This document shows positions 968-42,828 of a stretch of DNA of 42,828 nucleotides, piece by piece. The stretch is taken from contig CAISXT010000144.1 in the NCBI GenBank assembly GCA_903889525.1, positions 1 through 42,828 of the forward strand, read 5' to 3'. This DNA is from an uncultured Opitutia bacterium (GTDB lineage Bacteria > Verrucomicrobiota > Verrucomicrobiia > Opitutales > UBA953). Both the position numbers and the translations under genes were made by a program. Positions within the stretch are counted from its first letter, which is position 1. The number at the start of each line of letters is the position of its first letter. The notes under the pieces were generated by a model. That model saw only the letters and a list, made by a program, of their open reading frames with translations, made no database searches and had not been told where the DNA came from.

Positions 968-977
968 GACGGTAAGA

Positions 978-1682: not shown

Positions 1683-1693
1683 GGCGGGAAAGT

Positions 1694-2830: not shown

Positions 2831-2876
2831 GGGGGTCTGGGGGGCGAGGTTCTGTGTAGGCTGTTCGTTTGCGTAT

Positions 2877-2909: not shown

Positions 2910-2944
2910 GCGGGGCTCAGCCCTTGCCACGCTGGGCCTTAGGA

Positions 2945-3964: not shown

Positions 3965-3989
3965 ACCCATTTTCCCTTACCCCACCCCC

Positions 3990-5111
3990 ATGAATCGCGA
4001 ACTCGAAAAACTCCTCAAAGAAAAATGGTTCCTGGTCGCCGCCGACCTCATCGCGGTCATCGCCATCTTGTGCGTGGTGCCAGATGGCAAGCGCGACGGA
4101 TTCGACAACTTCTTGATTCTATCCGCGATCTTGCTGTCCTCGCTCATCGTGGTGATTCCCGTGCTCAAGGATGGTGGCGGTAAGGCGGAGCGCCTTGCCG
4201 AGCAGGCTCGACTGCGGGCCGCTCTGGCGGAGGAAATTGATCGTCAGCGCGATAGCAATCGGTCTGGCACGGAAGCCCTCAACCGCCGCATCGTGGAGGT
4301 CGAAATTTCCGCACAGAAGGCCGCCGAAGTGGCGGCGGTCGCCGTGGCGCAGCGCGCCTCGACGGAGGTCAATGCAATCAAGGCTGCGATGGCCGAGTTG
4401 GAAAAGAAACTTCAGCAGGCCGCCCAAGCCGCCCCATCGACCGAAGCGGTCGATGACCTCGCCGAAAAAGTTGATGCACTCGCGACCACGGTGCGCGCGG
4501 TCGTCGCGGATGCCGACGAACTCGCCACGGCTGCCGCCAAGGATCAGGCCGAAGCCAAGCAGGCGTGGGAGACCGAATTAAAGTCGGTGCGGGACGATAT
4601 CAAGAAGGCCGCCAAGCAGGCTGAAAAGGCTGCTGGCAAGTTGGCTGACGAAATCGAAGCCGTGCGCGGCGAGGTGCGCCAGTTGCCGGAGAATCTTTCC
4701 GTTGCCGCCGTGCCGGTGGCGGCGAAGAAGGCTGAGGAAATCGTCCACCCTGAGTTAACAGAAGATGAGTCCGAAGAAGAGCCAATCGATGAGATCATCG
4801 AAGAAGAGGAAGCGCCAGCGGAGGTGCCAGTGGCCGCCGCGGCTTCGGGCACGGGCACCTCGCTCACCATTAATCTCATGATCGGCATCGGTAACAAGCC
4901 GTATGTCCGCGGCACCGGCCCGGGACTCAATCCAGATAAGGGTGTGCTCATGAATTTCTTGGGTATTGGTCGCTGGCAGTGGATTTCGCCTGACCCGGAG
5001 GCACCCGCCACCGTTGAGGTTTGGAAGAATGACCAATCACCGATGGGCGAGCCGCTGCATCTTTCAGGCGGTGAGCCTGTGGAGGTCGACGAAGGACACT
5101 TCGGCGCCTGA
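3990..5111 (+). CDS. Membrane-anchored coiled-coil protein of unknown function
   Basis: A 373-residue protein I cannot assign to a named family. Two closely spaced hydrophobic segments (about residues 13-31 and 38-58) form a membrane hairpin. A long Ala/Glu/Lys-rich heptad-like coiled coil covers about residues 64-240. A very acidic linker follows (TEDESEEEPIDEIIEEEE), then a C-terminal globular part of about 85 residues (from TSLTINLMIGIG) with alternating hydrophobics that suggest beta strands. The ATG at 3990 was chosen because an upstream frame overlaps trpS and the sequence MNRELEKLLKEKWF starts the anchor cleanly; the leader is C-rich with no Shine-Dalgarno sequence. It lies 25 bases after trpS and 3 before the next gene. 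A structural or scaffolding role is only a guess. Confidence 0.8.
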   Translation: MNRELEKLLKEKWFLVAADLIAVIAILCVVPDGKRDGFDNFLILSAILLSSLIVVIPVLKDGGGKAERLAEQARLRAALAEEIDRQRDSNRSGTEALNRRIVEVEISAQKAAEVAAVAVAQRASTEVNAIKAAMAELEKKLQQAAQAAPSTEAVDDLAEKVDALATTVRAVVADADELATAAAKDQAEAKQAWETELKSVRDDIKKAAKQAEKAAGKLADEIEAVRGEVRQLPENLSVAAVPVAAKKAEEIVHPELTEDESEEEPIDEIIEEEEAPAEVPVAAAASGTGTSLTINLMIGIGNKPYVRGTGPGLNPDKGVLMNFLGIGRWQWISPDPEAPATVEVWKNDQSPMGEPLHLSGGEPVEVDEGHFGA

Positions 5112-5114
5112 GCG

Positions 5115-6203
5115 ATGCTGGGTCTTCTGGCTACTTTCAGCTGGTTGGCCGCTTCAGCTCCTGCGGTCGAGCCGCCGTTGCCTGTGCCCGCGCATGTTTA
5201 TGTCGCGGACACCCGTATCGCCACGGTGGCCAGCGAGAAGCTGGCCGAGGTGAGTTTTGTCGCCGTGCACTGCGATGCTTTGCAACGCTACTTGGAGTTC
5301 GCGCTCAATATGCCAGCGTTGCCGCCGCCCATGGCACGGCTGGAATCATTGGATGATAAAGGCTCAACCCTAGTGGAGACACGGGTGGCCGCCGGTAGTA
5401 TCTTGGTAGCGGTGCGGCTGGGAGATGCGTTGACCGCGCCGACGCGCGCATCGGAGGCCGTGGCGGCGACTTGGCTGGCGCGGGTGGCCCTTGCGGGCGG
5501 CAAGCCCGTCAGTGCCTCCGAGCCATGGACGCGGCAAGCCTTGGCGTGCGAGACGCTCGTCAGTTTGCGCCCAGCCATGAATGATTTCTGGTATCGTGAA
5601 GGCCGGCAATTACCACCGTCGACGCTCGAGGAGATTATCGCCGGGCGGGCCCCTGCGCGGGAGGCTTTTCTTTTCTGGCGGGCATTGCGCCAGACTTTGG
5701 TGGCACCCGCTGAGCAATCCAAAGCGTTGATTGCTTCGGCCCAGGGGGGGTCGATTCTCAAGTTGCTTGGCGGGTTAGCTAAGTCGCCGCAGGATTGGTG
5801 GCTAATCCATCGCGCGGAGTTACTCCTTTCGCGGAGTCCGGTCAGTCTTGGCCTGCGAGAGTCGGCGGAGTCACTGGATGACATCTCGCGGTTCGTCTTC
5901 GATCTCGGGCAAGGCGATGTGCTGATTCCGGGGGGCGAGCTGGGGAAGCACCGCGAGTTAGCGGCGATCAAGTCGAGCATTACGGCGCGGCTGGTTGCGT
6001 TGCGGCGGGAGATTTTACGCCAGAATCCGGTCTACCATAATTCATGGCGGACCTTTGGCGCTTGGCTGGAGGCATTTGGGACCGCCGCGCCGGAGGAGCT
6101 GGGTCGGTTATGGAAGGATTACGCGGCGGAGCGAAAACAGGCCGACGAGCTTCGCCGGGAGGTCGAGGCAGCGTTACTGGCGCCAACGCCGGCGGCCAAG
6201 TAA
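5115..6203 (+). CDS. Secreted/periplasmic protein of unknown function
   Basis: A 362-residue protein with a short hydrophobic N-terminus (MLGLLATFSWLAASAPAVEP), likely a signal peptide. The remainder is mostly helical, Ala/Leu/Arg-rich, with an Arg/Glu-rich C-terminal helix (about residues 330-355). No catalytic motif is recognisable. The start ATG is three bases after the stop of the coiled-coil gene, so the two are almost certainly translated from one transcript and may work together at the envelope. A perfect hairpin lies downstream at 6219-6240. Confidence 0.75.
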   Translation: MLGLLATFSWLAASAPAVEPPLPVPAHVYVADTRIATVASEKLAEVSFVAVHCDALQRYLEFALNMPALPPPMARLESLDDKGSTLVETRVAAGSILVAVRLGDALTAPTRASEAVAATWLARVALAGGKPVSASEPWTRQALACETLVSLRPAMNDFWYREGRQLPPSTLEEIIAGRAPAREAFLFWRALRQTLVAPAEQSKALIASAQGGSILKLLGGLAKSPQDWWLIHRAELLLSRSPVSLGLRESAESLDDISRFVFDLGQGDVLIPGGELGKHRELAAIKSSITARLVALRREILRQNPVYHNSWRTFGAWLEAFGTAAPEELGRLWKDYAAERKQADELRREVEAALLAPTPAAK

Positions 6204-27828: not shown

Positions 27829-29124
27829 CTATTTGCCCCAGCGCGCCGGCAGGTCGGGCATCGTCGAGGTCAGGATTTCGTGGATGGTGGCGCGCTCGGC
27901 TTCCGCGAGGTGCGCGAAATTCTGTGAAGGCGGGAAGGCCCGCAGGCCGGCGGAGAGTTTGAGCAGGATGATCTCGCGGAGTGGCTTGGGGAGCGTCGCG
28001 AAGCTCTGCGAATAAATCAACGGGCTACAGCGATAGCGAAAAATCCTCGTCGCAAGATCTAGGTCGCGCAGGGAGCGATTCTTGGCGTCGGGCTTACGGG
28101 TGCGGGCATAGGCCTTTTCAAAGACGCCGTCGCCGTGGATGCCTTCGGCGGGGAAGGCGGCCTCGTCTTTGCAGAGGAGGGCCTCGATGACTTTATCTGC
28201 CTGGCTGTTGAAGACGACCAGACAGGAGCCGGAGGGTGGCGCATCTAAGGGCAGTCCGAGAATCTCGCGCATGGCCGGCCAGCGATAAAGGGCGATGCGG
28301 GCGTCTTGGTTCGCGGTGGCTAGGACATTGTGGACGTGGACCTGATGGTCGTGCATCAGGAGCGGGACAATGTCGCTGGTGTTCAGTGGATATCGGCGCG
28401 TGTCCACGAGGTCCTTTAGGGTCGTGACCGTCTTGCCCATTTGGGCGGTCGGCCCTTCGAAGTCGTCGATGGATTTCCCGATGCGGTTGCCGCGATGGCG
28501 GAGAGTGCCTTCGGTGCCGGTGACGTACCAGCCGCCCCAGCGTTCAGCGAGCGGCGTCGAGGGCTCAATATTAGAGCCGCCGGAGCCACTTAATGGCTCG
28601 CCGTTGGCATCAGGGAAGACGGACCGCGTGCGGAGCGAAGGGGTGTGGTCGTGGCGGGTGTGGCAGAGTAGGCATTCACCACTGCGGGCGAAGAGTGGGG
28701 TGGGTCCGCTCTCGTGCTGATCCAGGAGGTAGAAAGTGGTGCCAAGGTTCGCGTCGAAGACAGTTACCTCAAAGCCGCCGCCCGCCGCCCAGCCGACATA
28801 CGCTTCATCGGAGAAGAAGAGCGCGCGCGGTGTCTCCGGGGAGATTAAATTCCGTTGCAGGCTGGTTTTACTGAAGACGAGTAGCTGGGATTCGATGGGC
28901 ACGTCCAGCTGTTCGAGTAGCCAGCGGAGCCGCTTCTTGGCGGGCAAACTGCGGATCTCATCGGCCTGCTGGCGGAAGGTCTCATTGATGCTCGTGACCC
29001 GGTCGTGCGGCTGCGTCGCCGAGTAGTTGATCGGCGGCTCCTCGAAGGGCTCGCGCTCCTGCGCTGCCCCCGGGCCCGCCAAGGTCAGCAGGGTGGCGAG
29101 CACAAGACTGGAGCGCAGGTTCAC
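27829..29124 (-). CDS. Secreted c-type cytochrome-like protein with one CxxCH, coupled to a sigma factor
   Basis: A 431-residue exported protein with a signal peptide (MNLRSSLVLATLLTLAGPGAAQ). A single heme c motif C151-L-L-C-H155 lies in SGECLLCHTRHDHTPSLRTRS. The rest matches no named enzyme: INYSATQPHDRV near residue 32, LLMHDHQVHVHN and a Leu/Pro-rich C-terminus are visible. It resembles uncharacterised single-heme secreted proteins of Verrucomicrobiota and Planctomycetota; this is from memory of similar architectures only. The GTG start overlaps the TGA of the sigma-factor gene (GTGA, 29121-29124), so translation is probably coupled. No terminator is seen after it except the opposite-strand hairpin at 27785-27817. 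Confidence 0.82.
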   Translation of the reverse strand: MNLRSSLVLATLLTLAGPGAAQEREPFEEPPINYSATQPHDRVTSINETFRQQADEIRSLPAKKRLRWLLEQLDVPIESQLLVFSKTSLQRNLISPETPRALFFSDEAYVGWAAGGGFEVTVFDANLGTTFYLLDQHESGPTPLFARSGECLLCHTRHDHTPSLRTRSVFPDANGEPLSGSGGSNIEPSTPLAERWGGWYVTGTEGTLRHRGNRIGKSIDDFEGPTAQMGKTVTTLKDLVDTRRYPLNTSDIVPLLMHDHQVHVHNVLATANQDARIALYRWPAMREILGLPLDAPPSGSCLVVFNSQADKVIEALLCKDEAAFPAEGIHGDGVFEKAYARTRKPDAKNRSLRDLDLATRIFRYRCSPLIYSQSFATLPKPLREIILLKLSAGLRAFPPSQNFAHLAEAERATIHEILTSTMPDLPARWGK

Positions 29125-30155
29125 GCCGCCATTTTGTCCGCACCGTCGGGCGACACAAGACCTTGCTGCTCGCGGGCGGCCATGCGGAGCTTACGCATGG
29201 CGATTTCCTCAATCTGGCGAATGCGTTCGCGGGAAACGCCCTGCTGTTGGCCAATCGCATCCAGGGTCTCCACTTCGCCGTTCAGCCCGTGGCGGCGGCG
29301 AATGACATCTTGTTCGCGGGCGGTGAGGCCGGACAAGAGTTTGGACAAGAGGGCGGAGTCATCCGCGAACAACGCGGCGAGGGCGGGGTTGAGGGCGTCC
29401 TCATCCGCCAGACGATCGCCGAAGGTGAGGTCGCTATCTTCTGCGCCGATCGGCGCATCCAGGGACTGGCCAGACTGTTGCAGGCACTGAAGCTCGGTGA
29501 GTTTCTCCCGCGAGCAGCCGAGGGCTTGGGCGATTTCCGCATCGGACGGCTCGGCATTTTTCTCCTGGCGGAGGCGTTCGGCGGTCTTGCGCATCTTGGA
29601 CATTTGCTCGTGGACATTGCGCGGGAGGCGCACCGTACGACGGAGGAAATTTAATTCACCCAGGACGGCGCTGCGGATACCCCAATAGGCATAGGTACTG
29701 AAGCGGTTACCGAGCTCGGCGTTGAATTGGCGGGCGGCCTCCAGTAGGGCGAGGTTACCCGCATTGATCAACTCCATGAGTTCGTCGCGCTTCACGTGGG
29801 TCTGGCTGGCGGCGTGGTAGGCGAGGCGGAGATTTGCGCACACCAGCCTATCGAAGGCGCACTGGGCGGCGGCGTTGAGGGTCCCGTGGGCGTCGGTGCC
29901 GGCCTTGATTGTACGGCCGAGGCGGAGTTCCTCCGCGGCTTCGAGGCGCGGCCAGCGGCTGGCTTGATCCAGGTAGCGGGTGAGCGCATCGCCGCCTTCG
30001 TTAACCGTGACGTCGATTTCGGCCTGACCAAGAATCGTTTCCGTGTCGACGCGGCTGAAACTGAGACGGCCTAGGTCGGGCAAATCGGAGCGGAGGGAGG
30101 AGAGGAGGGGGCTGGTGTGTGAGCGGGGGGTATGGGGGATTAGGTTGATGGTCAT
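29121..30155 (-). CDS. Group-2 sigma-70 family RNA polymerase sigma factor
   Basis: A 344-residue sigma factor. Region 1.2 is DALTRYLDQASRWPRLEAAEELRLGRTI (about residues 56-83). Region 2 is CAFDRLVCANLRLAYHAA...ELMELINAGNLALLEAARQFNAELGNRFSTYAYWGIRSAV (about 99-164), and region 3 contains RLPRNVHEQMSKMRK. Region 4 is LTAREQDVIRRRHGLNG...TLDAIGQQQGVSRERIRQIEEIAMRKLR (about 277-324), a complete helix-turn-helix for the -35 element. The N-terminal 55 residues are unlike RpoD. Lack of the large 1.1/non-conserved region fits an alternative (RpoS/SigB-type) factor rather than the housekeeping one. It is divergent from the lactonase operon and translationally coupled to the CxxCH gene. Confidence 0.93.
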   Translation of the reverse strand: MTINLIPHTPRSHTSPLLSSLRSDLPDLGRLSFSRVDTETILGQAEIDVTVNEGGDALTRYLDQASRWPRLEAAEELRLGRTIKAGTDAHGTLNAAAQCAFDRLVCANLRLAYHAASQTHVKRDELMELINAGNLALLEAARQFNAELGNRFSTYAYWGIRSAVLGELNFLRRTVRLPRNVHEQMSKMRKTAERLRQEKNAEPSDAEIAQALGCSREKLTELQCLQQSGQSLDAPIGAEDSDLTFGDRLADEDALNPALAALFADDSALLSKLLSGLTAREQDVIRRRHGLNGEVETLDAIGQQQGVSRERIRQIEEIAMRKLRMAAREQQGLVSPDGADKMAA

Positions 30156-30462
30156 GTGGAAAATGTGAGGGGCCTCTATATATAGGGCTTAAAAGGGTGT
30201 TTTGGGCCACGTGTTTGCCTAAGTCATTCTAGGACAAAGCAATAAAAACGTATTATATTTTCAGGCGGGGGTGGGCGCTGGGCCGCCGGCACCCGCTCCT
30301 CGGCGAGGGGGGTCGCTCATTATACCGATCCGGGTTTTTTTGTCAAAGGGGGTGCCGCCCGTCAGGATTGATAACAAAAATAGAGGGAACGCCCCAGCCC
30401 CTTTCGAGTCATAGGGGTTGCCCCCTCCGTGGGGGCTTCTTAACCCCACTTACCCCCCTACA
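30156..30462. promoter_or_regulatory. Divergent control region between sigma factor and lactonase operons
   Basis: A 307-base spacer with no credible gene. Visible elements: a 10-base palindrome CTATATATAG (30176-30185) just upstream of the sigma-factor ATG; TATAAT on the minus strand (30252-30257); GATAACAA on the plus strand (30370-30377); and a nested hairpin 16-49 bases before the lactonase ATG, with GGGGTT (30414-30419) pairing AACCCC (30442-30447) around GCCCCC/GGGGGC (30420-30425, 30431-30436). No matching -35 hexamer could be placed with confidence. Confidence 0.5.
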
Positions 30463-31566
30463 ATGCGTCACACCCTCCGCTTGCTCGCCATGCTTTCTCT
30501 GGTCCCTCTCGCCGGTGCCGCTGAACTCACTTACTATATTGGCACTTCGGGTGGTCAGGCCAAAGGCATCCTGCGCGGGACGATCGACGCGGAGACGGGC
30601 AAGCTTTCGGAGCCCACCTTGATGGTGGCCGCCAAAGGGGCCTCCTATCTCGCCCAAGGCAAAGACGCGAAGATTCTCTACGCCACCTCCGAAGTCGCGG
30701 GCGGCGGGGTGGCCGCCTATGCGCTCAGCACCGATGGTAAGGCGACGTTATTGAACGCTGAAAATACCAAGGGCAAGGGTGCCACGCACCTCGCCGTCGA
30801 TCCCTCTGGGCGCAATCTGCTTGCGGCGAATTACGTCTCGGGCTCCGTCGCCAGCCTACCGATCAAGGCGGACGGCTCATTGGCCGCCGCCATCGGTTTT
30901 AATCAGCATGTCGGTTCTGGGCCTGACACCAAGCGTCAGGCGGCCCCGCACGCCCACGGCATCTACCCCGATGTGGCTGGCAAGTTCGCTTATGTCCCTG
31001 ACCTCGGGACGGATGATATTTTTATCTATCGTTTGGAGGCCGAGCAGGGAACGTTGACCCTCAATGAGCCTAAGTCCGGCCGAGTGGCTCCGGGCAGCGG
31101 GCCGCGACACTTCGCTTTCCATCCCCGCGGTGGTTTCGCCTACGCCTGCAATGAAATGGCCCTCACGGTGAGTGCTTTTACCCTCGATGCCGCTAAGGGT
31201 GTGCTCAAAGAAATTCAGACTTTGCCCACGCTACCGACGGGCGCCTCGGCCGCGGGCGCCTCGACGGCCGAAATCTTCTGCCTGCCCAGCGCCAAGGCGC
31301 TTTACGTCTCCAATCGCGGCCATGATTCGCTGGCGGTTTATGCCATCGGTGCTAACGGCCAGCTGTCGCTCATTCAGCATATGCTGAAAGTGCCCGCCAC
31401 GCCACGGGGCTTTGGCTTGAGCAATGATGGACGCTGGCTCGTCTGTGCCGGCCAAAAATTCGGCACGATCAACGCTTATCGCGTCGACCCAGAGACCGGT
31501 AAACTCACGGACACGATGCAATCAGTGACGGCAGGTTCTTCGTGTTGTATCTTGTTCGCCCGCTAA
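30463..31566 (+). CDS. Secreted lactonase, 6-phosphogluconolactonase-type beta-propeller
   Basis: A 367-residue protein with a signal peptide (MRHTLRLLAMLSLVPLAGAAE) followed by a seven-bladed propeller of the lactonase/Pgl type. LTYYIGTSGG...GILRGTIDAETGKL is the family's first blade. APHAHGIYPDVAGKFAYVPDLGTDDIFIYRL carries the conserved His cluster, and GSGPRHFAFHPRGGFAYACNEM and TPRGFGLSNDGRWLVCAGQK continue the repeats. Cytoplasmic Pgl acts in the pentose phosphate pathway; a secreted version more likely hydrolyses sugar or polyol lactones made in the periplasm. It is three bases upstream of the cytochrome/PSD1 gene. Confidence 0.9.
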   Translation: MRHTLRLLAMLSLVPLAGAAELTYYIGTSGGQAKGILRGTIDAETGKLSEPTLMVAAKGASYLAQGKDAKILYATSEVAGGGVAAYALSTDGKATLLNAENTKGKGATHLAVDPSGRNLLAANYVSGSVASLPIKADGSLAAAIGFNQHVGSGPDTKRQAAPHAHGIYPDVAGKFAYVPDLGTDDIFIYRLEAEQGTLTLNEPKSGRVAPGSGPRHFAFHPRGGFAYACNEMALTVSAFTLDAAKGVLKEIQTLPTLPTGASAAGASTAEIFCLPSAKALYVSNRGHDSLAVYAIGANGQLSLIQHMLKVPATPRGFGLSNDGRWLVCAGQKFGTINAYRVDPETGKLTDTMQSVTAGSSCCILFAR

Positions 31567-31569
31567 GCC

Positions 31570-34044
31570 ATGACCCCTGCTGGAATTATGCACCGGATTC
31601 CGGCTGTATTGCTCGCCTTCGCTGCAACGACTTCGGTGGTCGCCGCGGCCCCGGTCGATTTCTCACACGAGGTCGTGCCGATCCTGCGTAAGCATTGTAC
31701 TGAATGCCACGCGGGGGACAAAAGGAAGGGCGGGCTTTCGATGAACACGCGAGCCTTGTTGCTGGAAGGCAGTGAGAACGGGGTTGTGCTGACGCCTGGC
31801 CAAAGCACCAAAAGTAAATTACTCGAGGCGATCGCGAGTGCCGACCCGGATGTGCGCATGCCTCCGAAGGGAGACCGACTGACTCCGGCCGAGGTCGGAA
31901 TTTTGCGTTCCTGGGTGGCGCAGGGTGCGCTCTGGACTGAAGGCTTCGCTTTCAAGAAGCCGGCCTATGAGCCGCTGCTTCGTCCGCGGATTCCCGTCTT
32001 GCCTGCGGCCGTGGATGGCCGCACTCACCCGCTGGACCGGGTGCTGGATGGCTGGCTTGCTCAGCGAAAACTACCATTACCGTCGGTAGCCGCGGATGCG
32101 GCATTTTTGCGTCGGGCTCACTTGGATCTCATCGGCCTGCTGCCGACGGAGATCGAGGCGAAGGCTTTCCTGGCGGATACCCGGCCGGATAAGCGTGCCC
32201 TGCTGGTGCGCTCTTTATTGGCACGCAATGTGGATTACGCGGATCACTGGATGGCCTTCTGGAATGACCTTCTCCGCAATGATTATGCGGGGACCGGTTA
32301 TATCGACGGCGGCCGTAAGCAAATCTCCGGCTGGCTCTATATTTCGCTGCTCGCTAATAAGCCCTACGACCAGTTTGCCCGCGAACTGATCGCGCCCTCC
32401 TCGGACAGTGAAGGCTTCGCCAAAGGCATCATCTGGCGCGGGGCCGTGAGCGCCGCGCAGGTTCCCGAGCTACAGTTCTCGCAGAGCGTCTCGCAGACTT
32501 TTCTCGGCATCAACATGAAGTGTGCTTCCTGCCACGACAGTTTCGTCGACCGCTGGAAGTTGAAGGATGCCTATGGCCTTGCGGCCATCTACTCCGACCA
32601 TCCGATGGAGCTCGTACGCTGCGACATTCCGACCGGGCGTCCAGCCGTGGCGGCTTGGCCGTTCCCCGAACTTGGACAGGTTGATAGTGCGAAACCGCGG
32701 AACGAAAGGCTCAGCCAGCTCGCTAGCCTGATTACGCATCCGGAGAACGGCCGCTTTCAGCGCACCATCGTCAACCGCCTTTGGCATCGTCTGATGGGTC
32801 GGGGTATCGTGCATCCCGTCGATGCCATGCAGACGGAGCCTTGGAATCAGAATCTCCTGGACGTGCTCGCCAATCAACTGGTCGCCTCTAAGTACGACCT
32901 GAAGGCGGTGTTGGAATTTATCGCAACTTCGCGGGCTTATCAGTCGGCGCCCGAGGTCTTGGCTCAGGGGGCTGAGGATAAGGGTTATGTTTATCGTGGT
33001 CCGCGCACCAAGCGCCTCACGGCGGAGCAGTTTGTCGACGCGCTTTGGAAGATTACGGCGACCTCACCTGGGAAGGTCGAGCTGCGGGTGCCGCGCCTCT
33101 CGCCAGCGGTCGGCGCGGCGAAGCCCGCTGTTGCGGTTGAGCCGTTACTGGCACTGCCGATTTGGTCTAACGATTTGACTGGAGGTCGCATTCCGGCCGT
33201 GGGCGAGGCACGGGCTTTTCGTAAAGAGTTTACGCTCGAGGGCACGGTGGAGTTGGCGATCTGTACGGTGACGTGCGACAACAGTTTTGAACTCTGGGTC
33301 AATGCCGTTAGGGTTGGAGTCGGGGCTGACTGGGAAACGCCCGAGAGTTATGATATCGGGGGGTTGCTCCACGCCGGGAAGAATCAGATTCTGCTCATCG
33401 GGCGAAACGCGGGCAATGTTCCGAACCCAGCCGCACTCTGGTTCCAAGCCAATATCGAAATGAAGGGTGGTGCCCGCGTAAAAATCGCCACGGATAATTC
33501 CTGGGAATGGTCAGCGACCTTGCCAAATGCTCGTGGTCAGTTCCCGGCGGCGAAGGCCGGAAAAGATTCGAGTCCTCTTGTCTGGCGCCCCATCGCCCCG
33601 GTTTCCGTTCTCACGGTGTGGAAGAAGGCCGAGGTGCGGATGTCACAGATGCTCGCCGGTTTGGGCGGCGCGAGCAACATGCCGGCTCGGGCCAGTTTGA
33701 TGAAGTCGGATATGCTTCAGCGAGCCTTAGGTCGTCCCAATCGTGAACAGATCGTCTCGGAGCGACCGAATGAGTTAAGTACGCTGGAGGCCATCGATCT
33801 TTCGAACGGACAGGCGTTGGCTAATCTGCTTGGCAATGGGGCCGGTACTTTATTGCGCAAGCGCAAGTGGGCCTCGTCTGAACAGCTGGTCCACTGGCTC
33901 TACCTTTCTTCCCTGAGTCGCGCTCCCTCGGCAGCCGAGTTGAGGGTCGCCCTTGGCATCGTCGGCCCAGAACTCTCTGAGCAAGGCGTCGCTGATTTAC
34001 TCTGGGTCGTCTGCATGCTCCCGGAATTCCAAACCATTCGCTGA
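31570..34044 (+). CDS. PSCyt1-PSCyt2-PSD1 protein with inserted jelly-roll-like domain
   Basis: An 824-residue exported multidomain protein. The signal is MHRIPAVLLAFAATTSVVAAA (start 31570 or ATG 31588). PSCyt1 has the heme motif C43-T-E-C-H47 in LRKHCTECHAGDKRKGGLSMNTR and ends at MPPKGDRLTPAEVGILRSWVAQGA. PSCyt2 (DUF1549) starts at LDRVLDGWLAQRKLPL and holds a second CxxCH, C318-A-S-C-H322. PSD1 (DUF1553) includes RTIVNRLWHRLMGRGIVHPVDAM and the C-terminal LYLSSLSRAPSAAEL. Between the PSD1 halves, about residues 530-665 (FRKEFTLEGTVELAICTVTCDNSFELWVNAVRVG...) look like a sugar-binding jelly roll. Family function is unproven. Confidence 0.9.
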   Translation: MTPAGIMHRIPAVLLAFAATTSVVAAAPVDFSHEVVPILRKHCTECHAGDKRKGGLSMNTRALLLEGSENGVVLTPGQSTKSKLLEAIASADPDVRMPPKGDRLTPAEVGILRSWVAQGALWTEGFAFKKPAYEPLLRPRIPVLPAAVDGRTHPLDRVLDGWLAQRKLPLPSVAADAAFLRRAHLDLIGLLPTEIEAKAFLADTRPDKRALLVRSLLARNVDYADHWMAFWNDLLRNDYAGTGYIDGGRKQISGWLYISLLANKPYDQFARELIAPSSDSEGFAKGIIWRGAVSAAQVPELQFSQSVSQTFLGINMKCASCHDSFVDRWKLKDAYGLAAIYSDHPMELVRCDIPTGRPAVAAWPFPELGQVDSAKPRNERLSQLASLITHPENGRFQRTIVNRLWHRLMGRGIVHPVDAMQTEPWNQNLLDVLANQLVASKYDLKAVLEFIATSRAYQSAPEVLAQGAEDKGYVYRGPRTKRLTAEQFVDALWKITATSPGKVELRVPRLSPAVGAAKPAVAVEPLLALPIWSNDLTGGRIPAVGEARAFRKEFTLEGTVELAICTVTCDNSFELWVNAVRVGVGADWETPESYDIGGLLHAGKNQILLIGRNAGNVPNPAALWFQANIEMKGGARVKIATDNSWEWSATLPNARGQFPAAKAGKDSSPLVWRPIAPVSVLTVWKKAEVRMSQMLAGLGGASNMPARASLMKSDMLQRALGRPNREQIVSERPNELSTLEAIDLSNGQALANLLGNGAGTLLRKRKWASSEQLVHWLYLSSLSRAPSAAELRVALGIVGPELSEQGVADLLWVVCMLPEFQTIR

Positions 34045-34047
34045 ACT

Positions 34048-35502
34048 ATGAATACGTCGCTCCCCCTGGATCCCTCCTTGCCCGAGCCGCTCGCCCGGCG
34101 TGAGTTTCTGCGGATGCTGGCCGCAGCCGGCGCGGCCACCTTGTCCATGGGTGCTCCACGGGCCCTTGCCGCGGAAGAAAAACTGATTCAACCGAAGGCG
34201 ACGGCGGACGCTTGTATCCTGATTTGGCTGGCGGGTGGCATGGCCGCTCCGGAGACCTTTGACCCCAAGCGCTATGTGCCGTATGAGAAGGGTTTATCGT
34301 ATGAGCGCTTACTGAGTACGTTCCCGTCGATTCCGACGGCGGTTGACGGCATGCGAATTTGTGAAGGACTTGAAAACATCGCTGGCGTGATGGATCGGGG
34401 CACGCTGATCCGCTCGGCGGTGCAGCCTGACCTTGGGAGCATCCTGCATTCCCGCCACCAATTCCACTGGCACACCGGCTACGTGCCGCCGCAGACGGTC
34501 GCTTGTCCGCACATCGGTGCCTGGATGGCCCGCGTGCTCGGCCCGCGCAATCCGGTCATGCCCGCTTTCATTAATATTGGCCAGCGGCTGGAGGGAGTGG
34601 GCGAGAGCGAAGAGCTGAAGGCCTTCACTACGGCTGGTTTCTTTGGAGGCGAATTTGGCCCGATGAACCTGCCTTTCCCGGAAGAGGCTGCGGCCGCGGT
34701 CCGTCCGCCCAAAGGCATGGACGCGTCTCGGTTTGTCAACCGTGACCGCGAATTCCGCCGGCTGGTGGATGCCTCGGCGAACCGCGACATGCTCAGTGAC
34801 TACCAGCAGCAGTCGATGTTGCGGGCCATGGATAATGCCTACCGTCTCCTGAGCGCGAAAGAACGTTCCGCCTTCGATATCTCTCTCGAAAGTAAGGAGG
34901 TGCAGCAGGATTATGACACTGGCCGCTTTGGTCGTGGCTGCTTATTAGCGCGGCGTCTCGTCGAGAATGGGGCCCGCTTCGTCGAGGTCACCACTGAGTA
35001 CGTGCCGTTCTTCCAGTGGGATACCCATGGCAAGGGGCATGAGACGGTCGCCAAGATGCACGCCGAAATCGATCGGCCGATTGCGCGCCTGATTCGTGAC
35101 CTCGAGCAGCGTGGTCTTTTGGATCGGACGCTCGTCATCATCGCGAGCGAGTTCAGTCGCGATGCGATGATTGAAGGCCGACCAGGCTCCAAGGCCGGCG
35201 ACCAGGCTTTTAATAAGGGTAAGACCATGGAAAGCCCGGACCACTACGGACTGCACCGCCACTTCACCGGTGGCACGAGTGTCGTGATGTTTGGCGGCGG
35301 CGTGAAGCGCGGCCAGATTTACGGCGCGACGGCGGATGAGCGGCCGTTAGTCGCCATCAAGAACCCCGTCTCCGTCTCGGATATGCACGCCACGATTTTC
35401 CATGCGATGGGCATCAGCCCGAAGACCGCTTACGATATCGAAGGCCGCCCGTTTTATGCGACCGTGGACGGCAAGGGCGTGCCCGCTCCGATCTTTAGCT
35501 GA
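34048..35502 (+). CDS. Tat-exported DUF1501 protein (sulfatase-like fold)
   Basis: A 484-residue protein with a twin-arginine signal: ARREFLRMLAAAGAATLSMGAPRALA (RREFL at about residues 17-21). The mature part has the DUF1501 pattern: ACILIWLAGGMAAPETFDPK (about residues 57-76) and HSRHQFHWHTGYVPPQ. Later segments are FVEVTTEYVPFFQWDTHGKGHETVAKMH, LLDRTLVIIASEFSR and HYGLHRHFTGGTSVVMFGGGVKRGQIYGATA. The fold is related to alkaline phosphatase/sulfatases, but metal ligands are not certain here. It is three bases after the PSCyt gene and overlaps the convergent glycerate kinase by eight bases. Confidence 0.92.
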   Translation: MNTSLPLDPSLPEPLARREFLRMLAAAGAATLSMGAPRALAAEEKLIQPKATADACILIWLAGGMAAPETFDPKRYVPYEKGLSYERLLSTFPSIPTAVDGMRICEGLENIAGVMDRGTLIRSAVQPDLGSILHSRHQFHWHTGYVPPQTVACPHIGAWMARVLGPRNPVMPAFINIGQRLEGVGESEELKAFTTAGFFGGEFGPMNLPFPEEAAAAVRPPKGMDASRFVNRDREFRRLVDASANRDMLSDYQQQSMLRAMDNAYRLLSAKERSAFDISLESKEVQQDYDTGRFGRGCLLARRLVENGARFVEVTTEYVPFFQWDTHGKGHETVAKMHAEIDRPIARLIRDLEQRGLLDRTLVIIASEFSRDAMIEGRPGSKAGDQAFNKGKTMESPDHYGLHRHFTGGTSVVMFGGGVKRGQIYGATADERPLVAIKNPVSVSDMHATIFHAMGISPKTAYDIEGRPFYATVDGKGVPAPIFS

Positions 35503-36613
35503 GCGCGGTTAGCTGCCGCAGCGCGGGGGCTTCGCGGGTGATGGCGAATTCAATGAGTTCGCCGGTGCGTTGCATGGCTTCTGCCAGGGGCATCTCCGGC
35601 GGCTTGATGCCGATGAGTAAGTCGAAGCGCGTGCGCAGGGCAGGGGAGTCATCGATCGAGCCCGCGATGCCGACGATTTTTTTGCCAAGCCGGCGGGCCA
35701 TCTCAGCCACCCCCACGGGACCTTTCCCCTGCAGGCTTTGGGCATCGAGTCGTCCTTCGCCGGTGATAATCACGTCGGCGGCGGCGATGCGTGCCTCGAG
35801 GCCGATATGTTGGGCGACAATTTCGAACCCGCTGGTGAGTCGACCATCCGTGAAAGCCATCAGCCCGAAACCGAGGCCGCCCGCGGCGCCGGCTCCCGGC
35901 ATGTCGCGCGGGTCGCACCCTAGATCTCTTTTCACGAGGTCCGCGAGGTGTTCGAGTCGATGTTCAAACCAGACGAAGTCGGTGACGCCTTTCTGGGGAC
36001 CATAGATACGGGTGGCTCCCCGGGGGCCGAGCAGTGGGTTGTCGACGTCGCAGGCTACGACGACCTCGGCGGACCATGGCTGGAGGGGGGGGGCGACCCG
36101 GTCAGCTTCCAGGAGGGTTTCCAGCGTTGGGATAAACGGCTGCCCCTGTCGGTTAAAGCGGAAACCAAGGGCTAGGGCGACACCCAGCCCCCCGTCGTTG
36201 GTGGCACTGCCTCCAATGCCTATAAGGATGTTAAGGGCACCCAGCTGGGCGGCCTTTTTCAGGAGGATTCCTGTACCTAAAGTGTTGGCTGTAAGTGGGT
36301 TAAGTTTTAAGTCGGCCACCAGTGCTATCCCGCTAGCTGCGCTCATTTCCAGGACGGCCGTCCGTGTCTCCGGAAGCCATCCCATGGCCGCCTTAATCGG
36401 CCGCCCTTGGGCATCAACCGTTTCAACCAGGATGATTTGGCCATGCAGGGCCGCGGTCACCGCTTCCGTGGTGCCTTCGCCTCCGTCGGCGATCGGGCAA
36501 ATGTCGATTTCAGCCTCAATATTGAGTGATTTCAGCCCATTTTTAATGTGACCAGCGATCGCCCCGGCCCCGAGAGAGCCCTTGAATTTGTCATTGGCGA
36601 TTAAGATGCGCAT
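35495..36613 (-). CDS. Glycerate kinase (GarK/GlxK type)
   Basis: A 372-residue kinase that makes 2-phosphoglycerate from glycerate. The N-terminus RILIANDKFKGSLGAGAIA (about residues 2-20) has the FKGSL motif. CPIADGGEGTTEAV (about 39-52) and LIGIGGSATNDGGLGVALALGFRF (about 134-157) are the GarK/GlxK signatures, and VIITGEGRLDAQSLQGKGPVGVAEMARR is also typical. Its TAA (35497-35495) lies inside the last codons of the convergent DUF1501 gene. It could use glycerate from sugar-acid or glyoxylate breakdown, fitting the sugar-processing context. No partner dehydrogenase is adjacent. Confidence 0.95.
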   Translation of the reverse strand: MRILIANDKFKGSLGAGAIAGHIKNGLKSLNIEAEIDICPIADGGEGTTEAVTAALHGQIILVETVDAQGRPIKAAMGWLPETRTAVLEMSAASGIALVADLKLNPLTANTLGTGILLKKAAQLGALNILIGIGGSATNDGGLGVALALGFRFNRQGQPFIPTLETLLEADRVAPPLQPWSAEVVVACDVDNPLLGPRGATRIYGPQKGVTDFVWFEHRLEHLADLVKRDLGCDPRDMPGAGAAGGLGFGLMAFTDGRLTSGFEIVAQHIGLEARIAAADVIITGEGRLDAQSLQGKGPVGVAEMARRLGKKIVGIAGSIDDSPALRTRFDLLIGIKPPEMPLAEAMQRTGELIEFAITREAPALRQLTALS

Positions 36614-36776: not shown

Positions 36777-39700
36777 ATGAAGCCGTTCCGTCAAACCGCC
36801 ATCCTCGCCGCCCTCTTGGCCGCCGCCCTCTCTCACGCCGCCGATGAGCCCGTCGCCTCCAAGGAAGGGTTGGAGTTCTTCGAGAAGAACGTTCGCCCGA
36901 TTCTCGCTGATCGCTGTTTCGAATGCCACTCGGCCGACAAGGGTTCCTCCAAGGGTGGATTGATTCTCGACTCGCGTGATGGCGCCTACAAGGGCGGCGA
37001 TGAAGGCCCTTCCGTCGTGCCAGGCAACCTTGAGAAGTCCCTCCTGATTAAGGCGATTCGCTATACTGATCCGGAATTCTCCATGCCCCCGAAGAAGTCT
37101 GGTGGCAAGTTGCCCGACGACAAAATTGCCATCCTCGAGGAGTGGGTGAAGATGGGTGCGCCGATGCCGGCGGGTGGAGCGGCCAAACTTACCGGACTAA
37201 CCGGCAAAGCTCGTCAACATTGGGCTTTCCAGCCGGTCAAGAAGTCCGCCGTGCCCACCGTGAAGAACAAGGATTGGGTTAAGAATCCGATTGATGCCTT
37301 CGTTCTGGCCAAGCTGGAAGACAAGGGCCTCGTGCCGAACCCCGTTGCAGATCCGGAATCTTTCCTCCGCCGTCTTTCCTATGATTTGATCGGCCTTCCT
37401 CCGACTTCCGAGCAGGTCGAAGCCTTTATCAAGGCTTACGAAGCCGGAGTTTCTTCCGACGCGATTGCGAATCGCACCGGTCGCCCGGCCAATAATGTCG
37501 AAACGGTCGTCGCCAAGCAGGTCGACTTTCTGTTGGCCTCGCCGCACTACGGTGAGCGCTGGGCTCGTCACTGGCTGGATACGGCCCGCTACTCCGATAC
37601 CCGCGGACTGCAGGTCGACCAAGGCGACAGCTTGTTCCGCGATTATCGCTACGCCTACGCCTGGACCTATCGCGATTACGTCATTAACGCCTTCAATGAC
37701 GACAAGCCTTACGACAAGTTCGTACTCGAGCAGCTCGCGGCGGACCGCCTCCCGGATATCGCCCCGGATGATGCTCGTCTGGCGGCCCTCGGTTTTATCA
37801 CCGTCGGTAAGCGCTTTGAAGATGTGCACGACACGATTGATGAGCGCATCGACACCGTCACCAAGGCGTTCATTGGCCTGACCGTCTCTTGCGCCCGTTG
37901 TCACGACCACAAGTTCGACCCGATCCCGACGGCGGATTACTATTCTCTGCACGGCATCTTCGCTTCCATCGTCGAGCCGCTCCAGCACCCCACCATCGGG
38001 GCCACCGGTAAAGTCGCCGCGGCCGCTCGTTCCGACTTCCAGAAGCGACTCGCCATGCTGCAGGACGAGCAGGTCGCTGGCTTCTTTAAGTACATGCGTG
38101 AGACCCGCGCCCGCTACGAGCGTGAGATGGCTGGCCGTCTGATGCTAGCCACCGTGCGCGGTGGTTCAAGCGACGCCGGAGACTATTCTGAAAAATATAA
38201 GATCGACCTGCAAAGCATGACCGATTTCGCCGCGATGCGCGTCCAGAAGGATTCGCCGATCACCGGCCCATTCGCGCATGCCGCCGAGGTGCCGGTCGTC
38301 TATTTCGCCGAGCGTGCCCAGGCGGTCATCGATGAATCGCTCAACGACCCGGACCACCCGGTTAACCCGATTATCGCCGCCGCCCTCCGTGGCCTGAAGC
38401 CCAAGAAGCTCGATGATGTCGCCGCGGCTTACCAGAAGGCCTACATTGACAACAAGGCGGCCATCCTCGCTCACCTTGCGGTCCTCGCCAAACCTGGCGA
38501 CGCCTGGAAGAAGTCTTCTCCGGCCATCGCCCAGATGGCGGGCTATCCGTGGGCTGTTCCTTGCTACGACGAAATCGTCGATAACGAGGAGATGATCTCG
38601 CTCTTCAGCACGCGTAAGTTCTGCGCGGAGTGGCAGAATCGCCCGGTCTACGGCGGCATCGGCAATCGTGCCCCGGCCGCTTATTTCCGCCACACGCAGA
38701 TCAATGAGCTGCGCCTCTCGCATCCGGGCGTGCCCGGAGAAGCGATGGCCATCCAGGATTCCGAGGCCCCGAAGGACAGCTACGTCTTCATTCGTGGCGA
38801 TAAGAACAAGCGTGGTGCCATGGTGCCCCGCCGCTTCCTTGATATCCTGACGATCGGCGATCGCCGCCCTTATGTCGATGGCAGCGGCCGTCTGGAGTTC
38901 GCCCGCTCCATTGTCTCGAAGGACAATCCGATGACCGCCCGCGTTGCCGTGAATCGTATCTGGATGAAGCACTTCGGTGAAGGCTTCGTGAATTCGCCGG
39001 ACGATTTGGGTAATATGTCGGAGAAGCCTTCCCACCCGGAGCTGCTCGACTATCTCGCCGCCGACTTCATGGAGAACGGCTGGACCACTAAGCGCCTCCA
39101 TCGCATGATTGTGATGAGTAACGCCTATCGCCTGGATTCTAATCCCATGGTCAACGCGCTTGTCGTCAAGAAGGGTGCCGCGGACCCGTTGAAGATCGAT
39201 GCCAGCAATCGCCTGCTCTGGCGCGCCAATCTCCGTCGTCTCGATTTCGAGGCGATTCGCGACTCCATGATTCTCCTCACAGGCCGGTTGAATCCGGCCG
39301 TCGGTGGTCAGCCTGCGAATATCACTGAAGAGCCCTTTAGCTATCGTCGCAGCCTCTATGGTTATGTCGACCGTAGCCGCTTGAGCGATACGCTTGCCCA
39401 GTTCGATTACAGCGACCCCGACATGGCGAACTCGAAGCGTAACACGACCATCGTGCCGCAGCAGGCACTCTTCTTCATGAACAACGCCTTGGCCGTCGAG
39501 GCCGCCCGTGCCGTGGCTGCGCGCAAGGATGTCGTGAATGCGATGTCCGAGGATCAGCGCATCGTCGCCATGTTCCGTTCGCTCTTCCAGCGCCGTCCTT
39601 CCACGGCAGAGATTCGCATGGCTCAGGAATTCGTAACGAAGCAGAAGATGCAGGCCGCCACCGCCAATCTGCGGACTGCTGCCAAGGCCACGGTTGCCGG

Positions 39701-39953
39701 AGCCAAGGCCACGGCTATCGTCGCCAAGCCCAAGACGGGCGTCGTCGCTAATAACGCCAAGTCAGCGGGTAAAATGGCCGCACCGGCGATGGCCGAGGGA
39801 GCTGAAGAGACGATGATGGCTGCCACCACTGGACCAGGCGCCGAAGGGATGCTGCGGAATACGGGCGAGCTTATCTCTCGTAACCCGCTGAGCCCAATGG
39901 AGTTACTCGCTCAGGCGCTGATCCTTTCGAACGAGTTTGTTTACGTAAACTAA
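36777..39953 (+). CDS. PSCyt1-PSCyt2-PSD1 protein (tandem copy 1)
   Basis: A 1058-residue exported protein. A signal peptide (MKPFRQTAILAALLAAALSHA) precedes PSCyt1 with heme motif C47-F-E-C-H51 and MPPKKSGGKLPDDKIAILEEWVKMGAP. PSCyt2 (DUF1549) starts at NPIDAFVLAKLEDKGLVPN and includes ASPHYGERWARHWLDTARYS and a second CxxCH, C372-A-R-C-H376, in a CHDHKFDPIPTADYYSLHGIF context. PSD1 (DUF1553) covers about residues 700-1040, with MTARVAVNRIWMKHFGEGFV and NNTTIVPQQALFFMN-like motifs. An Ala/Lys/Thr-rich insertion (about residues 957-1022) interrupts the PSD1 end. A likely c-type cytochrome with unknown partner enzyme; no DUF1501 gene follows it. Confidence 0.92.
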   Translation: MKPFRQTAILAALLAAALSHAADEPVASKEGLEFFEKNVRPILADRCFECHSADKGSSKGGLILDSRDGAYKGGDEGPSVVPGNLEKSLLIKAIRYTDPEFSMPPKKSGGKLPDDKIAILEEWVKMGAPMPAGGAAKLTGLTGKARQHWAFQPVKKSAVPTVKNKDWVKNPIDAFVLAKLEDKGLVPNPVADPESFLRRLSYDLIGLPPTSEQVEAFIKAYEAGVSSDAIANRTGRPANNVETVVAKQVDFLLASPHYGERWARHWLDTARYSDTRGLQVDQGDSLFRDYRYAYAWTYRDYVINAFNDDKPYDKFVLEQLAADRLPDIAPDDARLAALGFITVGKRFEDVHDTIDERIDTVTKAFIGLTVSCARCHDHKFDPIPTADYYSLHGIFASIVEPLQHPTIGATGKVAAAARSDFQKRLAMLQDEQVAGFFKYMRETRARYEREMAGRLMLATVRGGSSDAGDYSEKYKIDLQSMTDFAAMRVQKDSPITGPFAHAAEVPVVYFAERAQAVIDESLNDPDHPVNPIIAAALRGLKPKKLDDVAAAYQKAYIDNKAAILAHLAVLAKPGDAWKKSSPAIAQMAGYPWAVPCYDEIVDNEEMISLFSTRKFCAEWQNRPVYGGIGNRAPAAYFRHTQINELRLSHPGVPGEAMAIQDSEAPKDSYVFIRGDKNKRGAMVPRRFLDILTIGDRRPYVDGSGRLEFARSIVSKDNPMTARVAVNRIWMKHFGEGFVNSPDDLGNMSEKPSHPELLDYLAADFMENGWTTKRLHRMIVMSNAYRLDSNPMVNALVVKKGAADPLKIDASNRLLWRANLRRLDFEAIRDSMILLTGRLNPAVGGQPANITEEPFSYRRSLYGYVDRSRLSDTLAQFDYSDPDMANSKRNTTIVPQQALFFMNNALAVEAARAVAARKDVVNAMSEDQRIVAMFRSLFQRRPSTAEIRMAQEFVTKQKMQAATANLRTAAKATVAGAKATAIVAKPKTGVVANNAKSAGKMAAPAMAEGAEETMMAATTGPGAEGMLRNTGELISRNPLSPMELLAQALILSNEFVYVN

Positions 39954-40125: not shown

Positions 40126-42828
40126 ATGCTGATCCGTCTTAACGCCGTTCGCTTTCTTACTCTCTCCGCCGTGCTGAGCATCGCCCCCGCCGTGCGTGCG
40201 GCCGATGAGGCCAAGCCCGCGGAAAAAATGGATCCCGCTGGCCTTGAGTTTTTCGAGAAGAATGTCCGCCCGATTTTCACCGAGCGTTGCTACAAGTGTC
40301 ACTCGACGGCGGAAGGTGTCTCCAAGGGCGGCTTGCTCATGGATACTCGCGCTGGCCTGCTGGCTGGCGGCGACCAAGGTGCGGCAGTCGTGCCCGGCGA
40401 TCTCAAGAAATCATTACTCCTCGTCGCGGTGCACCAGACCGACCCGGAGCTTTCGATGCCTCCGCGTAAGGAAGGTGCCAAGCTTTCCGAAAAGCAGATT
40501 TCCGTGCTCGAAGAATGGGTGAAGATGGGCGCACCTGCTCCGATTGGTTCCGGCGGTGCGAAACTCACTGGCCTTTCTCAGAAAGCCCGTGAGCACTGGG
40601 CCTTTAAGCCAGTCGGCGAATATCCCGTGCCGACGAAACTCAGCCTGCCTGGCTGGTGCCAGACGGAAATTGATGCGTTCGTCATGTCCAAGCTGGACCA
40701 GCTCGGCTTGAAGCCCAGTCCGGCTGCCGACGGCGAAGCGCTGCTTCGTCGACTCAACTACGACTTGATCGGATTGCCTCCCTCCAACGCCGAAGTTGAA
40801 GGCTTCAGCCGCGAATACGATACGGCCGTCGCCCGCGATGTGCTTTCACTGCGCAATGGCCAGCCCGCCCGCGCCGCCACCGCCGTCGTGGAGCGCGCCG
40901 TGGATCGCTTGCTCGCCTCGCCTCACTACGGTGAGCGCTGGGCCCGCCACTGGCTCGATACCGCTCGCTACTCCGACACCAAGGGCCTGCGCCGTAATGG
41001 CGGGATTGAGAACTTCGAAAGCTCCTGGACTTACCGCGATTACGTCATCGATGCGTTCAATACCGATAAACCCTACGACCAATTCATCATCGAGCAGCTG
41101 GCGGCCGATCGTCTGCCGGATTTGGCCAAGGATGACCCGCGGCTCGCGGCCCTCGGTTTCATCACGCTCGGTAAGCGCTTCCAGAATGCGGACGACACGA
41201 TCGATGAACGCATTGACGCCACGACCAAGGGCTTCCTTGGCCTGACGGTCGCCTGTGCCCGCTGCCACGATCACAAATTCGACCCGATTCCGGCGGCTGA
41301 CTATTATTCATTGCACGGCATCTTCTCTTCAATCGGTGAACCGATGCAGTACCCGGTCATCCGTGACCCGTTGCTGCAGGGTAAGAACGCCCCCACCAAC
41401 GCCTATCGCGCCGACTTCGATAAGAAGCACGCCGATCTCATCAACGAAACCGGCCGCGGCTACTATAAGCATATCGCCGGCCTTATGAACACCCTCCACA
41501 AGGAGTTCGGTCCGCGCGCCTTGGTTTCGATGGTCGGAGGGTACCGCAGCACCGCTGGTTATGACATCTTGAAGAAGTACGACATGCAGGAAAGCCGGGA
41601 AATCGACGGCTCCCTCATGGTGCGTGTGGATTCCCCCATCACCGGCCCGCTGGCGCGCCTGAAGCGCGTGAATGAGAAGACCTTTGAAAAGGATGCACCT
41701 GCCGCCATTGCCGAAGCGCTTGCGGACAAGAAGAATCCCGTCAACCCGATCATCGCTGAAGCCCTGCGGACGCTCAAGCCGCGCTCACTCGAAGAAGTCG
41801 CCTTGGCCTACCAGTCCGTCCTGCTGAAGAACCATGACAAGATCTTGGCTCACATTCAGCTCCGTTCCACGCCCGGCCGGAAGGGCGACAAGGATGATGC
41901 CGCCATGGCACAGCTCGCCTCCTATCCTTGGCCGTTGCCCAACATCGAAGACATCAACACGGTGCCGGCCCTTGAATTGCTCACCGAGGCCCGCACGTTC
42001 TGTGAAGCCTGGCAGGCCGCTCCGAGCCAGACCTTCCGCAATGGCAATAAGCCCGCCAAGTATTTCAAGTTCAAGGAACTCAACGAACTCGACATCACCC
42101 ACAAGGGTGGTCCGGGCATGGCGATGGTCGTCACCGACAACGAGAAGCCTCGCGACAGCTACGTGTATATCCGTGGCGACCGAAATAAGCGCGGGGCCGT
42201 CACCCCTCGCCAGTTCTTGGAAATCTTAGCCGGCCCCGATCGCCTTCCTTTCTATGAAGGTAGCGGTCGTCGCGAACTGGCCCTGTCTATCGCGAGTCGT
42301 ACCAATCCGCTGACCTCGCGCGTCCTCGTCAACCGTCTTTGGCTGCACCACTTCGGGGCGGGCATTGTCTCCACGCCTGACGACCTGGGCAATATGTCCG
42401 AAAAGCCAACGCACCCTGAGCTGCTCGACTGGATGGCCACTAACTTCGTCGAAAACGGCTGGTCGATCAAAAAGATGCACAAGAAGATCCTCTTGTCCGC
42501 CGCATATCGCCAGTCCGCGAATCCGAACACCAATTCCCAGGTCGCTCAGAAGGGCGCCGTTGATCCCTTCAAAGTGGACTCCAGCAATAAGTTCATCTGG
42601 CACGCCAATCTCCGCCGCCTCGACTTCGAGAGCATCCGCGACTCCATGCTGGTTCTCTCCGGCAAGTTGGACCGCGCCTTGGGTGGACGCGCGGTTAATA
42701 TCACCGATGAGCCTTACAGCTATCGTCGCACAATTTACGGCTTCATCGATCGCGACCGCTTGAGCGAGTTGCAAACGCAGTTCGACTTCGCTGACCCCGA
42801 CATGGCGAACACCAAGCGCTCCACGACC
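40126..42828 (+). CDS. PSCyt1-PSCyt2-PSD1 protein (tandem copy 2, partial)
   Basis: The open frame runs from the ATG at 40126 to the window end (901 codons) without a stop, so the 3' end is missing. It is a close paralogue of the gene at 36777. It has a signal peptide (MLIRLNAVRFLTLSAVLSIAPAVRA), heme motif C55-Y-K-C-H59 and a second, C377-A-R-C-H381. Over twenty identical residues surround ASPHYGERWARHWLDTARYS (about 264-285). The same GLEFFEKNVRPI opening and MPPRKEGAKLSEKQISVLEEWVKMGAPAP PSCyt1 end are present. PSD1 begins about residue 690 and is cut near the LSELQTQFDFADPDMANTKRSTT motif. It lies behind a terminator and its own promoter; a DUF1501 gene may follow beyond the window. Confidence 0.92.
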   Translation, partial: MLIRLNAVRFLTLSAVLSIAPAVRAADEAKPAEKMDPAGLEFFEKNVRPIFTERCYKCHSTAEGVSKGGLLMDTRAGLLAGGDQGAAVVPGDLKKSLLLVAVHQTDPELSMPPRKEGAKLSEKQISVLEEWVKMGAPAPIGSGGAKLTGLSQKAREHWAFKPVGEYPVPTKLSLPGWCQTEIDAFVMSKLDQLGLKPSPAADGEALLRRLNYDLIGLPPSNAEVEGFSREYDTAVARDVLSLRNGQPARAATAVVERAVDRLLASPHYGERWARHWLDTARYSDTKGLRRNGGIENFESSWTYRDYVIDAFNTDKPYDQFIIEQLAADRLPDLAKDDPRLAALGFITLGKRFQNADDTIDERIDATTKGFLGLTVACARCHDHKFDPIPAADYYSLHGIFSSIGEPMQYPVIRDPLLQGKNAPTNAYRADFDKKHADLINETGRGYYKHIAGLMNTLHKEFGPRALVSMVGGYRSTAGYDILKKYDMQESREIDGSLMVRVDSPITGPLARLKRVNEKTFEKDAPAAIAEALADKKNPVNPIIAEALRTLKPRSLEEVALAYQSVLLKNHDKILAHIQLRSTPGRKGDKDDAAMAQLASYPWPLPNIEDINTVPALELLTEARTFCEAWQAAPSQTFRNGNKPAKYFKFKELNELDITHKGGPGMAMVVTDNEKPRDSYVYIRGDRNKRGAVTPRQFLEILAGPDRLPFYEGSGRRELALSIASRTNPLTSRVLVNRLWLHHFGAGIVSTPDDLGNMSEKPTHPELLDWMATNFVENGWSIKKMHKKILLSAAYRQSANPNTNSQVAQKGAVDPFKVDSSNKFIWHANLRRLDFESIRDSMLVLSGKLDRALGGRAVNITDEPYSYRRTIYGFIDRDRLSELQTQFDFADPDMANTKRSTT

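Follow-up and report, generated by a model that had tools for sequence, protein, structure and literature searches.

Do a sigma-70 family gene, the gene for a CxxCH protein beside it and three genes facing them on the other strand form a single regulated system, and what would such a system process? The question is raised by a stretch of 42,828 nucleotides (the window) from an uncultured Opitutia bacterium of the Verrucomicrobiota (GenBank contig CAISXT010000144.1), which is contig C144 of a 2.24-Mb genome that is 90% complete. We conclude, with a probability of roughly 0.55, that the plus-strand run is a periplasmic carbohydrate operon based on a PSCyt-DUF1501 couplet, that a sulfatase gene was lost from it, and that it is coordinated with the sigma/CxxCH neighbour through the spacer between them. 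The genes concerned are the following.

27829..29124, minus strand: CxxCH (CLLCH) protein, an open reading frame of 431 amino acids from an unclassified family
29121..30155, minus strand: sigma-70 family factor with regions 1.2-4, diverged in 2.3/2.4 (Pfam; alignment with the genome's RpoD)
30463..31566, plus strand: lactonase of the 7-bladed propeller family PF10282 (Pfam)
31570..34044, plus strand: PSCyt1-PSCyt2-PSD1 protein (PSCyt protein below) with two CxxCH motifs (Pfam; motif scan)
33157..33625, limits approximate, plus strand: domain resembling carbohydrate-binding module (CBM) family 67 and a rhamnosidase/lectin, at about residues 530-685 of the PSCyt protein
34048..35502, plus strand: DUF1501 protein with a twin-arginine motif (Pfam)
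35495..36613, minus strand: glycerate kinase, a convergent neighbour (Pfam)

An earlier note on the window had described these six open reading frames, and all were recovered, as were the 307-base spacer and the two 3-base gaps. The sigma-70 regions 1.2/2/3/4, PF10282, PSCyt1+PSCyt2+PSD1, DUF1501 and glycerate kinase all score above Pfam cut-offs. Ratios of nonsynonymous to synonymous substitution (dN/dS) between the window's genome and its sister G002 are 0.12 for the sigma factor, 0.11 for the CxxCH protein, 0.12 for the lactonase, 0.09 for PSCyt, 0.004 for DUF1501 (under the strongest constraint in the cluster) and 0.18 for glycerate kinase. Such low values indicate purifying selection, and thus that the six open reading frames are real, functional genes.

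The core of the plus-strand run is conserved beyond the genus. Near-full-length DUF1501 orthologs (67-75% identity) were identified in at least 19 class genomes outside the genus (236 genomes, scoring no more than 6 candidates per genome). Outside the genus 28 loci were fetched, 4 of them cut at a contig edge, and PSCyt lies upstream of DUF1501 in 22 of the 24 that are testable (not in L102 and L105). Clustering of open reading frames recovered the same order in 20/22 class loci. The window's pair has the Pfam domains and CxxCH motifs of the couplet, with DUF1501 adjoining at a 3-base gap. Sulfatases follow PSCyt-DUF1501 in three class loci outside the genus; beyond the couplet itself, neighbours are shared by at most 3 of 22 loci. 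Genes for lactonase, the sigma factor, the CxxCH protein and glycerate kinase were identified in none of the 28 DUF1501 loci. The five genes had been read as one system, with a search for their linkage in other genomes as a check. Once run, that check leaves only PSCyt and DUF1501 linked outside the genus, and the five-gene linkage is confined to the genus, where the whole 25-kb region is conserved anyway.

Within the genus, 30 of the 31 fetched loci (L068 is a contig end), and G152 too, have the sigma gene immediately upstream of the CxxCH gene and on the same strand. In every locus fetched far enough, the opposite strand then carries lactonase, PSCyt and DUF1501. Gene order is also preserved in the flanks (flavin adenine dinucleotide (FAD) oxidoreductase, H+-pyrophosphatase, 3-keto-disaccharide hydrolase, cupin, GDSL and glycerate kinase). 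A tRNA-synthetase gene (class I W/Y) lies 24 kb away in the window and 26-28 kb away in all seven relatives with a contig long enough for the comparison (G001, G009, G016, G020, G021, G029 and G032). Because this gene and the whole 25-kb region are conserved too, linkage within the genus is weak evidence for shared function. The sigma/CxxCH pair and the lactonase-PSCyt-DUF1501 run could be functionally unrelated and adjacent through conserved gene order, as the lack of linkage outside the genus would suggest, along with the variable presence of sulfatase, M13 peptidase and CxxCH genes while the sigma gene stays. However, a single conserved spacer holds the promoter-like sites of both units, interlaced with each other, and there is a precedent for a proposed regulatory sigma factor beside a PSCyt2/PSD1 gene (PMC2754498, available part). 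We consider adjacency without shared function possible, but rather unlikely.

For the operon reading that we prefer, a carbohydrate substrate is favoured because 29 of the 34 loci have a sulfatase gene (PF00884, three orthologs checked) between those for sigma and lactonase and because PSCyt has the CBM67-like domain. Thus, of the earlier proposal of a regulated carbohydrate system, the operon-like plus-strand run kept in the genus and the class of substrate are supported, but the single five-gene unit is not. An M13 peptidase gene is present in 9/34 loci and precedes the sulfatase in 8 of the 29; G152 has the peptidase without the sulfatase. No sulfatase gene occurs at the site in the window, G002, G004, G007 or G152, so the window itself does not carry a sulfatase operon. 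Nor was a close ortholog found elsewhere in G000, G002, G004, G007 and G152 (best matches 30-36% identity, compared with 68-86% in four genomes with the gene at the site). As judged without a tree, the ancestral order was probably (M13 peptidase)-sulfatase-lactonase-PSCyt-DUF1501, and the sulfatase would have been lost in the window's lineage. The CxPxR active-site pattern has no match at its usual place in the sulfatase (L043, 7898-9235, and orthologs), though Pfam Sulfatase fits.

The PSCyt protein contains two putative heme attachment motifs (CTECH and CASCH). Its AlphaFold (AF2) model has a predicted local distance difference test score (pLDDT) of 81.7 and a predicted template modelling score (pTM) of 0.71. 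The CBM67-like domain was recognized by sequence (6t0q, a fungal lectin, E 5.9e-29; 3w5m, E 3.7e-21) and by fold (Foldseek, 3w5n, E 2.3e-8). D570 and N571 align with D179 and N180 of 3w5m, a pair whose role in that protein we take as given, and the pair is present in 17/20 aligned rows. The domain thus combines the CBM67 fold with the Asp-Asn pair, as do the CBM67 of the Streptomyces avermitilis rhamnosidase (3w5m/3w5n) and the Pleurotus ostreatus lectin. Unlike in these, it is part of a cytochrome-type protein rather than a glycosidase, and binding is only predicted. CBM67 is described as calcium-dependent and rhamnose-binding in the available part of PMC4690510. The PSCyt2 domain of the window's gene is divergent (145 bits, versus 236-285 for 18 of the 22 PSCyt2 matches in the genome). 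Two further PSCyt2 matches occur beyond the cluster, at 36777-39953 and 40666-41334 of the window.

The lactonase is related to the periplasmic gluconolactonase PpgL (6igb, E 9.9e-41) and matches the PpgL/6-phosphogluconolactonase family (PF10282) over its full length. It differs in scoring below the NCBIfam equivalog cut-offs. The N terminus of DUF1501 carries a readable twin-arginine motif, RREFL. Most likely, PSCyt would bind a sugar via its CBM67-like domain and then oxidize it, with electrons passing to its own c-type hemes. The lactone product would be opened by the lactonase, and DUF1501 may perform a second, hydrolase-type step. In L050 (G016, 504-5529), the matches to glycerate kinase, DUF1501 and PSCyt are broken into frame-shifted pieces, perhaps due to assembly errors.

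A connection between the operon and the sigma/CxxCH pair is suggested by the spacer, in which we identified three elements.

30171..30186, no strand assigned: conserved GGCCTCTATATATAGG element directly upstream of the sigma ATG, with a CCTsTAT-type pattern in 27/34 loci
30231..30259, plus strand: promoter-like site toward the lactonase operon, with a poor -35 in the window and TTGAAT-18-TATAAT in relatives
30319..30346, minus strand: perfect TTGACA-16-TATAAT promoter toward the sigma gene (12/12), 191 nucleotides upstream of the sigma ATG

Promoter-like sites for sigma (TTGAC-N16-[TC]ATAAT, 167-200 nucleotides upstream) score at least 9/12 in 27/34 loci (shuffle mean 0.5, maximum 3), those for the operon do so in 24/34 (shuffle mean 0.6, maximum 4), and 20/34 loci have both. 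The operon site is nearer the sigma gene than is sigma's own promoter; therefore, the two are oriented toward each other, and about 50 nucleotides would be common to the two predicted leaders. In the window the predicted starts lie near 30312 (minus strand) and 30266 (plus strand). A covarying dyad at the operon's -35 scored 0.70, versus 0.36 for the next of 65 centres, in a scan of 24 spacers that excluded the 10/34 without an anchor and ignored kinship. G002 and, by eye, G152 resemble the window in lacking an intact dyad, and the sulfatase is also missing in these three. The palindromes reported earlier in the spacer are mostly weak; the exception is the conserved CCTCTATATATAGG at 30173-30186. 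A structured RNA leader for the sigma gene was rejected, as 34 single folds and a 16-row alignment gave no consistent fold. An Rfam scan of the window returned a distant tRNA as its sole match. The sigma/CxxCH pair would be a genus-level neighbour of the operon. Its specialised sigma factor would be made from a housekeeping-like promoter, with a leader overlapping the operon's own promoter, and the two units would probably be coordinated through the shared spacer rather than via a heme-sensing switch. Control of the lactonase operon by the sigma factor is possible.

The sigma factor had been assigned to group 2, in which the DNA-binding regions 2.4 and 4.2 are near-identical to those of the primary sigma. 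This label is doubtful. Equivalents of R584, E585, R588 and Q589 (-35 recognition, region 4.2) are retained in 34/34 orthologs, but those of W434 and Q437 (2.3/2.4) are substituted in all 34, as is T440 in 32/34; for these residues we presume the Escherichia coli numbering and roles. Regions 1.2, 2, 3 and 4 and the -35 recognition helix are shared with group-2 (RpoS/SigB-like) factors. The differences are the replaced W434/Q437 equivalents and an identity of 33% to the genome's RpoD (alignment over residues 100-330). Extracytoplasmic function (ECF) sigma factors lack region 3, for which this protein scores 50.3 bits (Sigma70_r3, cut-off 25.3), so it is not of the ECF type. In the genome as a whole, region 3 scores above cut-off in three sigma-70 genes. 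Judging from the retained and lost residues, the factor probably recognizes normal -35 boxes together with an altered -10. Among the 57 genomes searched at E<=1e-60, it turned up in 22, all from the genus, where more diverged copies are also present. A record titled Akkermansia muciniphila (L039) contains a 94% identical sigma factor, and its label is probably wrong.

A regulon was sought with TTGACR-N15..18-CATAAT in 24 genus genomes, a search that took in neither the TATAAT variant nor 13 further genomes of the genus, and none emerged. The pattern gave 10 matches, eight with a 16-base spacer (seven at the sigma gene itself, one in G018) and two with a 17-base spacer (one each in G000 and G002).

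The earlier note envisaged a redox-sensing switch in which the sigma factor and the heme protein drive the operon. The -35 recognition residues kept in all orthologs are consistent with this, as is the position of sigma directly upstream of CxxCH in 31 of the 32 genus loci with a CxxCH gene (the other is a contig end). However, the CxxCH protein looks secreted, its N terminus being signal-peptide-like by eye, and therefore would not contact the sigma factor directly. No anti-sigma or membrane partner was noticed among the neighbours, in which no dedicated search was made. The GTGA overlap of the two genes, present in the window as claimed, was found in only 2/32 loci (the window and G002), and gaps of 36-176 bases occur in 29 others; some sigma start codons in relatives were assigned by hand, and the start choice in L044 is unsafe. 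The CxxCH gene is missing from G003, G006, G018, G030 and G031, and sigma (E<=1e-60) is still present in G003, where the contig ends, and in G030 (L077), where it adjoins a GDSL gene. The concentration of the CATAAT-type matches at the sigma gene also argues against a switch acting on the operon, and we consider this model improbable.

Heme binding by the CxxCH protein may be predicted from its motif, which is retained in 36/36 homologues (window included; 3 from outside the genus) and invariant in a 26-row alignment. Other invariant residues hint at a further site. The gene is present in 31/36 genus relatives, in 3/20 other genomes of the order and in the window's own genome, and homologues occur in 32/387 genomes of the phylum. 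No neighbour was seen in more than 3 of 20 CxxCH loci outside the genus, and no homologues were found in plasmids at E<=1e-5. In those genomes compared that have both CxxCH and DUF1501, the genes are far apart (5.69 vs 1.65 Mb in G247). The protein has no Pfam or NCBIfam match (best Pfam E-value among 26 homologues 0.017). Its AF2 model (pLDDT 90.2, pTM 0.89) had no match at E<=0.001 among 350,542 PDB chains, and profile comparison gave no PDB match below E 0.36. The confident model, together with the failure to find any relative, makes the family an attractive candidate for a first structure. It is conceivable, but we think it a long shot, that a genus-specific sigma factor whose -10 recognition has been rewired is co-transcribed with a c-type heme protein of undescribed fold, and that the two serve an oxidative periplasmic sugar pathway as a module for control and electron transfer, with mutual gating by face-to-face promoters.

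Several observations weigh against the spacer-coordinated carbohydrate operon. Linkage of the lactonase is limited to the genus. In the CBM67-like domain the Asp-Asn pair is replaced in 3/20 rows (one DD, two without), and in the short PSCyt forms of L100 and L101 (634 and 624 amino acids) the domain is seemingly missing. None of 24 genus genomes, several of them incomplete, gave a match above cut-off to L-rhamnose isomerase (RhaA) or GH78 rhamnosidase; thus, rhamnose itself may not be the substrate. At the 9/12 threshold, 10/34 spacers lack the forward promoter and 7/34 the sigma promoter, in a scan with ranges chosen after inspecting the spacers and statistics that ignore sequence kinship. 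The window itself lacks an intact covarying dyad, and the activity of all family members is predicted only.

Planktonic Verrucomicrobia have large numbers of PSCyt genes, as yet uncharacterised (PMC5615132, here and below from its available part). The conserved two-gene core, together with the sugar-binding domain, the lactonase and, in most relatives, the sulfatase, provides a concrete substrate class to test. In that study, PSCyt genes lie near sulfatases and are fused to CBMs, and PSCyt2 is usually beside a family of unknown genes. This family may be DUF1501, which the available part does not name. The freshwater genes share with our locus the combination of PSCyt1, PSCyt2 and PSD1, the CBMs (including Bac_rhamnosid_N), the unknown family next door, the nearby sulfatases and the many copies per genome. 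The locus differs in the lactonase within the operon, the head-to-head sigma and CxxCH genes and the divergent PSCyt2. The literature searched yielded no sigma-70/CxxCH unit placed head to head with PSCyt genes. The closest parallel is from Rhodopirellula baltica, in which the ECF sigma factor RB10049 was suggested as a regulator of the PSCyt2/PSD1 protein RB10051 (PMC2754498, available part). Control of PSCyt genes by a sigma factor has thus been proposed before, although that factor is of the ECF type and the one described here is a four-region sigma-70 with region 3. We regard the locus as a variant, specific to the genus, of an already known type of PSCyt system, in which the couplet is joined by a lactonase, in most relatives by a sulfatase, and by an interlaced sigma/CxxCH unit.

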